Shown here: positions 38,099 to 43,022 of the stretch, piece by piece
How positions within the stretch are numbered: the stretch's first letter is position 1
How the letters are laid out: every line of letters starts with the position of its first letter
DNA from: Catenulispora sp. EB89
GTDB taxonomy: Bacteria > Actinomycetota > Actinomycetes > Streptomycetales > Catenulisporaceae
Direction: 5' to 3'
Length of the DNA stretch: 64,000 nucleotides
Assembly: GCF_041261445.1 (NCBI RefSeq)
Contig: NZ_JBGCCU010000013.1
Coordinates: 62,001-126,000, forward strand
Notes under the pieces: model-generated
What the model saw: only the letters and a program-made list of their open reading frames with translations
Told to the model about the DNA's origin: nothing
The model's database searches: none
Made by a program: the position numbers and the translations under genes

Positions 38099-38806
38099 TC
38101 ACACTCCCACGCGGCCGTGTTCACGAAGCGGGCCGACCGCCCACCCGCGCTCGTCGCAGTGGTCGAGGAGCAGCGGCACGGCGCCGAGCGTGGCGTGCCA
38201 GGAGCCGGGCTTGGCGGTGCAGTCGGTGTCGTGGAGCAGGATCGTGCCGCCGCCGGTGAGGTCCTTGGTGACCTGGCGGTGGACGCCGCTCGGGGTGGCA
38301 CGCGCCGTCCAGTCCTCGCCCCAGCTGGTCCAGAGCGTGGGCCGCAGCCCCAGATGCCGAGCGCTGCGGTGCGCCGAGGCGGTCATGACTCCATAAGGCG
38401 GCCGGAACAGTGTCGGCTGCTCGCCGGTGAGGTCGGCGAGGAAGTCGCGGGCCCGAGTCAGGTCCTGGTCAGTCGCCCGGGGGCTGCGGAACAACAGGCT
38501 CTGGTGGTGCCAGCCGTGCACGCCGATCTCGTGCCCGGCCGCCTGGATCTCGCGGACCAGGCCCGGTGCGCGCTCGGCCATCGCGCCGAGCAGGAAGAAG
38601 GTCGCGTGCACGCCCCGCGCCGCCAGCAGTTCCAGGAAGCGCGGTGTCGAGTTCGGGTCCGGACCATCGTCGAAGGTCAAGGCGACATGATCAACAGCAC
38701 CGCGCGCCGCCAACCCGGGCAGCACTCGGTTGCGGACCGGACCAAAGGTCGTAGTCGCCGGAAAGGGATGCAGGAGCACAGTCGCGGCAGCAGCCAAGGT
38801 GCGCAT
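38099..38806 (-). CDS. Polysaccharide deacetylase (NodB domain, CE4)
   Basis: A 235-residue CE4-type deacetylase. After a short hydrophobic N-terminus (RTLAAAATVLLHPFPATT), the NodB motifs appear in order: VALTFDDGPDPNSTPRFLELLAARGVHATFFLLG (motif 1, metal-binding DD), HGWHHQSLLF (motif 2, HxxxH-like), FRPPYGVMT (motif 3) and ILLHDTD (motif 5). It should remove acetyl groups from N-acetylglucosamine-type sugars. Its ATG shares one base with the stop of the upstream glycosyltransferase (TGATG at 38804-38808), so the two are translationally coupled and probably work on the same glycan or glycolipid. Confidence 0.92.
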   Translation of the reverse strand: MRTLAAAATVLLHPFPATTTFGPVRNRVLPGLAARGAVDHVALTFDDGPDPNSTPRFLELLAARGVHATFFLLGAMAERAPGLVREIQAAGHEIGVHGWHHQSLLFRSPRATDQDLTRARDFLADLTGEQPTLFRPPYGVMTASAHRSARHLGLRPTLWTSWGEDWTARATPSGVHRQVTKDLTGGGTILLHDTDCTAKPGSWHATLGAVPLLLDHCDERGWAVGPLREHGRVGV

Positions 38807-40155
38807 CAGACCGCCGCCGCCGCTGCCGAGCCGACCGCCGAGCCAGCCAGGCCCGCCGGACCAGCCGAGCCAACTGAGCCAGCCAGGCCCGCCGGACCAG
38901 CCGAGCCAACTGAGCCAGCCAGGCCCGCCGGACCAACCGAGCCAGCCAGGCCCGCCGGACCAGCCGAGCCAACTGAGCCAGCCAGGCCCGCCGGACCAAC
39001 CGAGCCAGCCAGGCCCGCCGGACCAACCGAGCCAACACCGGCACTGGCACCAGCACCAGCCACCCGACCCCCACCACCCAGCAGCTCCATGATCACCGCA
39101 TCCGCCTCCGCCCCGTCCCCGACCATCGCCAGCCCGGCATTGTGCTGCCGCCGCCCCCGCACCCCCGAGGCCAGCTCCCGCAGCGCCCCCGCCAGTTCCC
39201 CCTCCGACCGCACCCACACCGCGAGCCCGGCCTCGTCCAGCACCGCCGCGTTCGTCCGGCCGTGCCCGACCAGGCTCCGGTAGGTCGCGACCGGCAGGCC
39301 GGTGGCGAAGGCCTCCAGCGTGGAGGAGGCCCCCGCGTTCTGCACCATCACGTCGGCGGCCGCCATCAGCGTCGGCATGTCCCCGACCCAGCCGAACACG
39401 TGCGGGAACCCCGCCGCGCGGAGCCGCCCCCGCAGCACCTCGTTGCGTCCGCACACCACCACCGGCGTCACCACGCCCGAGGCCGCCAGGTCGCGTGCGG
39501 TGCGCTCGATGTCGCCGACGCCCCAGGAGCCGCCGAGCAGCAGGGCCAGCGGCTTGTCCGCCGTGTCCAGGCCGAAGCGCGCCCGCGCCGCCTGGCGCCG
39601 GGCCGCCGTGCGCGCGGTGAACCGGGCCGACACCAGCGGCCGGGCCACCGCGACCCGGGACGGCGCCACGCCGTGCGCCACCGCCTGGGCCGCGGTCACC
39701 GCGTGCGGCGCCAGGTACAGGTCCACGCCCGGCGCGATCCACAGCGGGTGCACCGAGAAGTCCGTGAACGTCACCACCACCGGCACCGCCAGGCGCCCCG
39801 AGGCCCGCAGCCGGCCCAGCACCTGCGCCGCCAGCGGGTACGTCGCCACCGCCGCGACCGCGTCCGGCGGTATCGCGTCCAGCACCGCCTGCTCCGCGCC
39901 GCGCAGCAGGTGCCGCTGCACCAGGCCGGGGCGCGCCGCGCGCTCGGTGCGCGAGTAAATGCACTGGTACAGCGCCGGGGCGTGCGTGATGATGCGCCGG
40001 TAGGAGCCGCACACCGCGCGGCCGGCGGGCATCAGGGCCAGGAAGTCGTGCCGGTCGACCGCGAAGCCGCGCGCGGTCAGCCGGTCGGCGAGGGCCTGGG
40101 CGGCGCTGTCGTGACCGGCGCCGACCGAGGCGGAGAAGATGACCACGCGGGACAT
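38806..40155 (-). CDS. MGDG-synthase/MurG-like glycosyltransferase with collagen-like tail
   Basis: A 449-residue GT28-type glycosyltransferase. The N-terminal half starts SRVVIFSASVGAGHDSAAQALADRL, the monogalactosyldiacylglycerol-synthase signature, and includes YTRxx-like SYRRIITHAPALYQ. The C-terminal donor-binding half contains LLLGGSWGVGDIERTA, FGWVGDMPTLMAAADVMVQNAGASSTLEAFATGLPVATYRSLVGHGRTNAAVL. The last ~80 residues are GSVGPAGLA repeats. The ATG at 40153-40155 has GGAAGGA upstream. It is coupled to a NodB deacetylase, resembling systems that add and then deacetylate a sugar on a lipid carrier. The exact acceptor is unknown. Confidence 0.9.
   Translation of the reverse strand: MSRVVIFSASVGAGHDSAAQALADRLTARGFAVDRHDFLALMPAGRAVCGSYRRIITHAPALYQCIYSRTERAARPGLVQRHLLRGAEQAVLDAIPPDAVAAVATYPLAAQVLGRLRASGRLAVPVVVTFTDFSVHPLWIAPGVDLYLAPHAVTAAQAVAHGVAPSRVAVARPLVSARFTARTAARRQAARARFGLDTADKPLALLLGGSWGVGDIERTARDLAASGVVTPVVVCGRNEVLRGRLRAAGFPHVFGWVGDMPTLMAAADVMVQNAGASSTLEAFATGLPVATYRSLVGHGRTNAAVLDEAGLAVWVRSEGELAGALRELASGVRGRRQHNAGLAMVGDGAEADAVIMELLGGGGRVAGAGASAGVGSVGPAGLAGSVGPAGLAGSVGSAGPAGLAGSVGPAGLAGSVGSAGPAGLAGSVGSAGPAGLAGSAVGSAAAAAV
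38841..39024 (-). repeat. Minisatellite (27/36-bp units) encoding collagen-like tail
   Basis: The 22-bp core AGCCAGCCAGGCCCGCCGGACC (in plus-strand reading, split by the spacer AGCCGAGCCAACTG or AACCG) occurs six times at 38841, 38877, 38913, 38940, 38976 and 39003. Spacings are 36, 36, 27, 36 and 27 bp, all multiples of nine. Cores are identical, so the array is young and probably variable in length between strains. It encodes GSVG(SAG)PAGLA units. Confidence 0.92.
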
Positions 40156-40329: not shown

Positions 40330-41605
40330 GTGCCGACGACGCGAGAGAACCTGCGAATCCGCTGGGGCCAGGCCGGGTGGGACGCCCTGTTCCTGGTGAG
40401 CGGGCTGCCGCTGTGGGCCGGGTCGATGGTGGTGCTGCTGGTCTGGAGCCAGCCGGTGTTCCTGCTCGTGAAGGCGGCCGACCCCGGCATCCTGCGCTTC
40501 GGGCTCTCCGTGGTGGTGGTCCTGGCCGGGGTGCTCACGGCGGCGCCCTTCCTGACGCGCTGGGAACGCAACCGTTTCCGCACGTTCCGGAACGTGGAGA
40601 TCCACCGGGTCGAGACGCCGCGGCTGTTCCGGGGCGAGTTCCGTCAGGCCCTGCGCTCGGAGGCGCTGTGGCGCCAGACGCTCTACCACCTGATAGCCGG
40701 CCCGCTGATCGGGCTGGCCGTGGTGGGCCTGGCCTTCATGGACCTGCTGGCGATCGTGGTGGCGGTCAAGCTCCCCGCGCACGCGCTGGTCCTGATCGAC
40801 CCCCGGCACGGCGTCAGCAGCAAGTTCTGGGGTCAGTGTGCTTACATCCTGCTGGCCGGCACCGCCACCTACTTCGGACCGCGCCTGATCCGCCTGCTCG
40901 CCAACGCCGACCTCGCCGCCGCCCGGCGCCTGCTCGGCCCGAGCGAGACCATCGTGCTGGCGAACCGGGTGCAGACGCTGTCCGACAGCCGCGCCGCCGC
41001 GGTCGAGGCGGCCGACGCCGAGCGCCGCCGCATCGAGCGCGATCTGCACGACGGCGCGCAGCAGCGTCTGATGTCGCTGGCCGTGCACCTGGGCATCGCC
41101 CGCAAGACGCTCAAAGAACGGGGCGACGTGCCCCCCCGACGCGATGAGTGTCATCATCGACGCGCACGGGCAGGTCAAGGACGCGATGGCGGAGATCCGG
41201 AACCTGGTGCGCGGCCTGCATCCGGCGGTCCTGGACGACCGCGGCCTGGACGCCGCGCTGTCCGGCGTCGCGGCGCGCTCGGCCGTCCCGGTGCGGCTGA
41301 CCGTCGGCGCCACCGGTCCGCTCAGCGCGTCGGTGGAGACGGTCGCCTACTTCGTGGTCTCCGAGGCGCTGGCGAACGTGGTCAAGCACTCCCGCGCGAA
41401 GCAGGCCGCGGTCGACGTCTCCCGGCAGCAGGACCACCTCCTGATCCGGGTCAGCGACGACGGTGTCGGCGGCGCGGACGCGCAGGGCGGCACCGGCCTG
41501 ACCGGGCTGGCGCAACGGGTCGCTTCGGTGGACGGCCGGCTGCGGCTAACATCACCGAGCGGCGGTCCGACCGTCCTGACCGCCGAGCTGCCCTGCGGGG
41601 TGTGA
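40330..41605 (+). pseudogene. NarL-system sensor histidine kinase, frameshifted
   Basis: A two-component kinase read in two frames. From the GTG at 40330 the first frame encodes a membrane sensor domain with several helices (GAGSMVVLLVW-type segments, residues 15-215) and the HisKA_3 dimerisation domain with phospho-acceptor His240 (ERRRIERDLHDGAQQRLMSLAVHLG). The frame then fails at GDVPP within seven consecutive C (41131-41137). The +1-shifted frame continues DAMSVIIDAHGQVKDAMAEIRNLVRGLHPAVLDDRGL and the ATPase domain (EALANVVKHSRAK, VSDDGVGG, GTGLTGLAQRV), ending at 41605. With six C the gene would be a normal 424-residue kinase. Either a real mutation, a phase-variable tract or a sequencing error is possible. 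Confidence 0.88.
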
Positions 41606-41620
41606 ATTCCAGGGGGAACC

Positions 41621-42262
41621 ATGCGCGTGGTGATCGCGGACGACTCCGTCCTCATCCGCGCCGGGGTGGTCCGGGTCCTGGAGCTCTCCGGCCACGAGGT
41701 GGTCGCCGAGACCGGCGACGGGATCACGCTGCTGGCCGCCGTGGAGGAGCACCGGCCGGACGCGGTGGTGGCCGACGTCCGCATGCCCCCGACGTTCAAG
41801 GACGAGGGCATCGTCGCGGCGGTGCAGATCCGCGAACGGTTCCCGGCCACGGCCGTCCTGGTCCTGTCCCAGTTCGTCGAGGAGCGCTACGCGACCGACC
41901 TGCTGGCCCGCGACACGACGCGGGTCGGCTATCTGCTCAAGGACCGGGTCGCCGACATCGACTCCTTCATCGAGGCCCTGGAGCGCGTCGCGGCCGGCGG
42001 CACTGCGCTGGACCCGGAAGTCGTGGCGCAGCTGCTGGTTCGCCGCCCCACAGACCCCCTGGACCGTCTCACTCCGCGCGAGCGAGACGTACTGGCGCTG
42101 ATGGCCGAGGGCCGCGCGAACGCCGCTATAGCGGAGGTGCTGGCGGTCAGCGAGAGCGCCGTGGGCAAGCACATCAACAACATCTTCATGAAGCTGGACC
42201 TCCAGCCCGACGACCTGGGGCACCGTCGCGTGCTGGCCGTATTGCGATACCTGGCTGCGTGA
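41621..42262 (+). CDS. NarL/FixJ family response regulator
   Basis: A 213-residue response regulator. The receiver domain (residues 1-120) has acidic Asp7/Asp8, phospho-acceptor Asp52 in AVVADVRMPP and Lys in YLLKDRV. The LuxR-type DNA-binding domain (about 145-210) reads LTPRERDVLALMAEGRANAAIAEVLAVSESAVGKHINNIFMKLDL. The ATG at 41621 has GGGGGA upstream and is 15 bp after the kinase frame, as expected for one operon. Since this gene is intact while its kinase is interrupted, signalling may depend on suppression of the frameshift or on another kinase. Confidence 0.94.
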   Translation: MRVVIADDSVLIRAGVVRVLELSGHEVVAETGDGITLLAAVEEHRPDAVVADVRMPPTFKDEGIVAAVQIRERFPATAVLVLSQFVEERYATDLLARDTTRVGYLLKDRVADIDSFIEALERVAAGGTALDPEVVAQLLVRRPTDPLDRLTPRERDVLALMAEGRANAAIAEVLAVSESAVGKHINNIFMKLDLQPDDLGHRRVLAVLRYLAA

Positions 42263-42290
42263 CGCAACACGTCCGCATTAGCCTCCGCGC

Positions 42291-43022
42291 ATGGATCTTC
42301 AAGCCATCGCCGCAACAGGATGGGGTTTCTCTGAGCGCGCCTCTATAGGCGACTGGGAAGTACGTGCCGCGGGCGGACACACCTCGCGCGCCAACACTGC
42401 GATCCCTCTAGGGGATTCCGGAATGCCGCTCCCCCGGACTCTGGACGCGGTCCGGGAATGGTTCGCAGAGCGCGCTCTGCCCGGCCTTGTCCAGACCATC
42501 GACGGCAGTCCGCTGGATGACGACATCGCGGCTCTCGGCTTCACCGAGACCCTTCGCCCCGCGCTTCGCCAGACCGCGCCATTGGCCCCTGCGTTGGAAA
42601 CGCTTAGCGGTTCCGCGGACTTCCAACGCACAGCGAAGGTCACCCCAGAACTCCCCGAGGACTACTTCACGGTCTACCGTCGCGGCCTCGGCATCCCCGA
42701 GTTCAAGGACATCCTGACCTCCGGTGCCGCGCTGACCGCCTTCGCCGTGGTCCGCGACGACAATGGAGAGCCCCTCTCTGTCGGCCGCGTCGCCATTGAC
42801 ACCGGAAGCGGCTATGCGGGGATCGCCGCGCTCGCGACGGCGGAAGCCGCACGGCGGCGCGGACTGGCGCGCATCGTATTGCGGGACCTTCTGGCCTTCG
42901 CTGCCGAGAACGGTGCGGAGAACACCTACTTGGAAGTCGAGGAGGGGAACGCTCCCGCGCTTGCGCTCTATGCGTCCCTCGGTTACACGACCGCGCACCG
43001 TTATCACTGCCGTCGCCTGTGA
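42291..43022 (+). CDS. GNAT family N-acetyltransferase
   Basis: A 243-residue protein with a divergent N-terminal half and a C-terminal GNAT domain (about 120-243). The acetyl-CoA loop is visible as ATAEAARRRGLARIVLRDLLAFA (pattern R/Q-x-x-G-x-G/A), followed by YLEVEEGNAPALALYASLGYTTAHRYHCRRL, the classic end of the fold. The N-terminal part (GWGFSERASIGDWEVRAAGGHTSRANTAIPLGDSGMPL) resembles GNAT proteins in which two GNAT-like halves are fused. Codon use is slightly less GC-biased. The substrate is unknown; it could be a small-molecule or protein acetyltransferase. It begins 28 bp after the response regulator. Confidence 0.88.
   Translation: MDLQAIAATGWGFSERASIGDWEVRAAGGHTSRANTAIPLGDSGMPLPRTLDAVREWFAERALPGLVQTIDGSPLDDDIAALGFTETLRPALRQTAPLAPALETLSGSADFQRTAKVTPELPEDYFTVYRRGLGIPEFKDILTSGAALTAFAVVRDDNGEPLSVGRVAIDTGSGYAGIAALATAEAARRRGLARIVLRDLLAFAAENGAENTYLEVEEGNAPALALYASLGYTTAHRYHCRRL

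Follow-up and report, generated by a model that had tools for sequence, protein, structure and literature searches.

A Catenulispora sensor kinase gene put out of frame at a run of seven C, probably by a recent mutation

The two-component locus and the C run

The stretch of DNA analysed here (the window, 64,000 nucleotides, contig C13:62001–126000) belongs to an 11.9-Mb, 70-contig genome of the genus Catenulispora and carries a sensor kinase gene followed by a response regulator gene, both on the forward strand. Starting at GTG 40330, the kinase gene adjoins a divergent glycosyltransferase gene, and its intact frame ends at TGA 41605. The end of the glycosyltransferase gene (window 38700–39080) contains tandem repeats that make up a Gly/Pro/Ala-rich tail (GPAGLAGSV units). 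All the features of a NarL-type (HisKA_3) kinase are there, i.e., a DHp domain with its H-box, a HATPase_c domain and an adjacent REC–GerE regulator, with the kinase domains split over two frames. The first part (40330–41130) encodes a PF13796-type membrane sensor domain (about residues 28–192) and the first DHp helix, with Pfam matches in frame 0 to PF13796 Sensor (E 4.8e-8) and to positions 1–33 of the 68 positions of HisKA_3 (E 4.6e-8); the H-box His240 (41047–41049) lies in this helix. The second part (41138–41605) encodes the second DHp helix and HATPase_c (Pfam E 6e-9), found in the frame shifted by one base, just as the initial annotation had proposed when it placed an extra C within 41131–41137. 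Its further proposal that removing one C would repair the gene holds as well, giving a 424-codon open frame, equal in length to the ortholog of C. rubra. Likewise, the NarL/LuxR type response regulator (41621–42262) is intact, as had been claimed, with both Response_reg (REC; E 1.2e-14) and GerE (E 5.4e-13) matched by Pfam and Asp52 as the likely phospho-acceptor.

The frame change sits at the seven C (41131–41137, + strand), upstream of which the kinase reads in one frame and downstream of which it is one base out of step. The frame that opens at GTG 40330 crosses the run as GTG CCC CCC CGA and, by alignment to congeners, the run maps to the loop that joins the two helices of the DHp domain. 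Third-position G+C confirms the switch independently, falling in frame 0 from 0.95 before the run to 0.51 after it, where the +1 frame has 0.94. Frame 0 meets its first stop only at 42348, so that ribosomes that do not shift would read an open frame of 672 codons (40330–42348, + strand), about 269 kinase residues followed by out-of-frame sequence spanning the whole regulator gene. Finding seven within a gene is uncommon here: the C run is the only G/C run of seven in 215 kb of matched gene sequence (see below), and the 298-kb contig, minus one odd GC patch, has two runs of at least seven vs. about 17 expected under a second-order Markov model. Part of the run forms the right arm of a perfect inverted repeat, GGGGC-GACGT-GCCCC (41120–41134), which might promote slippage or a templated mutation, or make the site difficult to sequence. 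No unusual folding or stable structure was found around the shift site (z −0.56). The ATPase half might have been translated separately from ATG 41144, the earliest in the shifted frame, but we rejected this since inspection by eye revealed no Shine-Dalgarno-like sequence upstream and the split falls inside the DHp hairpin.

Conservation of the intact frame in relatives

The kinase was compared with ten copies from nine Catenulispora species (one genome per species, one of them, G004, complete in a single contig), the nearest being that of C. rubra DSM 44948 (G001), with 94% DNA identity. At the protein level the part before the run (40330–41130) is 85% identical to C. rubra and the part after it (41138–41605) 98%, while the regulator reaches 98.6% with a dN/dS of 0.05. 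All ten congener copies have the kinase in one frame of 421–430 codons. Their sequence at the site is CCGCCCGAG or similar, the tract being interrupted in most and never amounting to seven C; one copy (G003) has an in-frame run of six C and the other nine have no such run. We also scanned 80 actinobacterial homologs from a collection of species genomes, some of them the same congeners. By a motif test, 77 of these have H-box and ATPase part in one frame, with no G/C run of seven separating the two in any of them; the remaining three have variant H-boxes and proved to be in frame when checked by eye. A single open frame for the whole kinase, absent from the window gene, is thus present in every ortholog checked (10/10 congener copies and 80/80 homologs), which makes the split private to the window genome among those examined.

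No second intact kinase–regulator pair was found in the window genome, the best other match being 69% identical and covering only part of the region. A different lesion was seen in another congener (G009), where the syntenic locus (L043, G009:C15, 8689–8716, facing window 41606–42235) has kept the kinase and deleted the regulator; a second complete kinase–regulator pair is found elsewhere in that genome (L044). The operon has apparently been damaged twice in the genus, which would suit dispensability under some conditions.

Age of the frame change and reliability of the assembly

Coding constraint in the intact frame is evident on both sides of the run. The comparison with C. rubra gives a dN/dS of 0 for the first DHp helix and of 0.14 for the part after the run. 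Of the 20 post-run differences from C. rubra, counted from ATG 41144, 14 affect the third codon position in the intact (+1) frame (binomial p 0.0009), which indicates that this frame was maintained until very recently. The changes after the run that could be assigned to the window branch, polarised with three other congeners, are ten synonymous and two non-synonymous. Judging from these substitution patterns, selection held the intact frame over the greater part of the period after the divergence from C. rubra, so that the shift is either recent or an error. The only hint of relaxed constraint is a single residue, an otherwise invariant Glu changed to Gly just past the run.

The differences from C. 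rubra are clustered around the C run (window 41114–41166) and include a three-base change of a serine codon, TCC to AGT. Six of the 12 post-run changes on the window branch fall within 39 of 471 nt at the run (p 0.0002, in a test devised after the fact), a concentration which suggests one complex mutational event. A gene-conversion donor for this odd segment was sought in the genome and none was found within three mismatches. Read in the intact frame, most of the clustered differences are synonymous (K, R, G, P, and S codons), arguing that the local sequence is not sequencing noise.

The foremost rival to a real mutation is an assembly or sequencing error, in which case the true gene would have an in-frame tract and encode a normal kinase. 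The data described so far fit this reading too: intact-frame constraint on both sides of the run is how an error would be expected to look, an arm of an inverted repeat is a hard template, and artefact-like GC blocks occur elsewhere in the assembly. One of these is a 240-bp patch of nearly pure G and C (C13:262380–262620; L151 2380–2620), with inverted ends GCCGAGTCGGG and CCCGACTCGGC, probably a misassembled hairpin region. Long poly-C blocks, likely sequencing or assembly artefacts, are found in several other contigs (C8:8–68, C20:27–97, C24:191222–191303, C30:130956–130998, and C53:53–78), in several cases at contig ends.

Against an error, besides the sound look of the base calls near the run, stands a comparison with the complete congener genome, made over its parts syntenic to contig C13 (about 186 kb) and contig C17 (250 kb). 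Among 213 matched genes (about 215 kb), the kinase is the sole genuine frameshift, and none was found at the other G/C runs of these genes (17 runs of six and 242 of five), so that the assembly is not generally corrupted at homopolymers. A general homopolymer error was rejected on the same two contigs, the other candidate frameshifts being shadow frames or upstream start extensions; two candidates in C13 were checked residue by residue and the others, short stretches where the query frame begins, by coordinates. On its own, a single event in 215 kb is not enough to decide between a rare error and a rare mutation. Assembly error, one of the options left by the initial annotation, is thereby made less likely, and we consider it improbable, though with a chance that has to be taken seriously.

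Origin of the frameshift and competing explanations

The change is lineage-private and the gene was under coding constraint until recently, as in a recent frameshift null allele. We therefore favour, with fair confidence, a loss of function by a recent frameshift, private to this lineage, in a Catenulispora sensor kinase gene of NarL type (HisKA_3) that is otherwise conserved. Among the explanations first listed for the locus, recent loss is the one best supported. An ordinary recent mutation is most likely, rather than a new kind of regulation, with an error less likely. One base would have been gained at the C run in the DHp interhelix loop. Where C. rubra reads CCGCCC (CCG CCC), the window carries seven C, so the difference comprises a lost G in addition to the gained C. 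Two routes are conceivable: a G to C change may have lengthened the run to six C, after which slippage added one more, or a single event templated in the GGGGC...GCC(G) quasi-palindrome may have replaced the G by CC. Slippage is plausible with the repair genes at hand, given that a MutS_V match is absent from the genome and NucS_C matches are present (one just past the window, at C13:127496–127849). Streptomyces that had lost NucS showed no considerable change in indel rate (PMC11109965), which implies that indels are not the main target of NucS; with NucS only and no MutS, indels are probably poorly policed here.

As to the consequences, ribosomes staying in frame 0 would make a 672-codon chimera with the sensor and the H-box helix, lacking the second DHp helix and the ATP-binding domain, and such a protein would not be expected to autophosphorylate. 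The regulator would then not be phosphorylated by its cognate kinase, and its translation may lose the normal coupling, as the kinase stop just upstream would no longer be used. In being a lineage-private single-base indel in a conserved gene, the case resembles ordinary frameshifted pseudogenes of two-component kinases, but it differs from these in having no early stop, since frame 0 runs on for 672 codons through the partner gene.

Phase variation, in which tract length would switch within the population, leaving the kinase on in some cells and off in others, has a close precedent in the C6/C7 homopolymer of bvgS in Bordetella pertussis, both lengths of which have been observed in cultures (PMC1891110). 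The likeness lies in a one-base change in a short C run of a sensor kinase gene whose regulator gene is intact; here, in contrast, there is one assembly with one length and a run that is not conserved in relatives. In Mycobacterium tuberculosis, also an actinobacterium without MutS, glpK contains a seven-G tract in which a one-base expansion, giving a null allele, recurs among many isolates and is linked to a phenotype (PMC6667613), whereas ours is a single genome. Both precedents, the missing MutS and the in-frame run of six C in one congener speak for a switch. However, seven C is a short tract, and the tract is not kept in the related genomes: nine of the ten congener copies are without such a run and all ten are in frame, which gives no support to a conserved switch. 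We thus find phase variation improbable, and the fuller proposal, that a soil actinomycete reversibly switches a two-component system on and off through the C7 tract, enabled by the missing MutS-type repair, slightly more so. The closest known events are those of bvgS and glpK, which show that a change of this sort may in some cases occur often or be reversed.

Ribosomal +1 frameshifting at CCC-CGA, whether programmed or leaky, would yield some full-length kinase; it can be called very improbable. Although tRNA-Pro is prone to +1 frameshifting on CCC-C (PMC8643618) and slipping by +1 on the second CCC would restore the correct frame, the site has neither a stop codon nor unusual folding, and the run or a shift is found in none of the ten congener copies, nor a shift in the 80 wider homologs. 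The suggestion of programmed frameshifting accordingly finds no support, and conserved recoding was rejected on the evidence of the single-frame orthologs. It is possible that low-level leaky +1 shifting gives a little whole kinase, which would not be a designed feature.

If the recent loss is real, this strain would have a silenced sensor and an orphaned response regulator, and regulon studies carried out in it would mislead; otherwise the locus is a caution for annotation. The run of seven C also offers a clean site at which to ask if slippage at short G/C runs is frequent in MutS-less filamentous actinomycetes. A separate observation concerns the sensor domain (window 40411–40905, residues 28–192), which has a dN/dS of 1.33 with respect to C. 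rubra, compared to 0–0.14 elsewhere in the gene, with 26 non-synonymous vs. two synonymous changes on the C. rubra branch; from these ratios, the input domain looks like one under diversifying selection.
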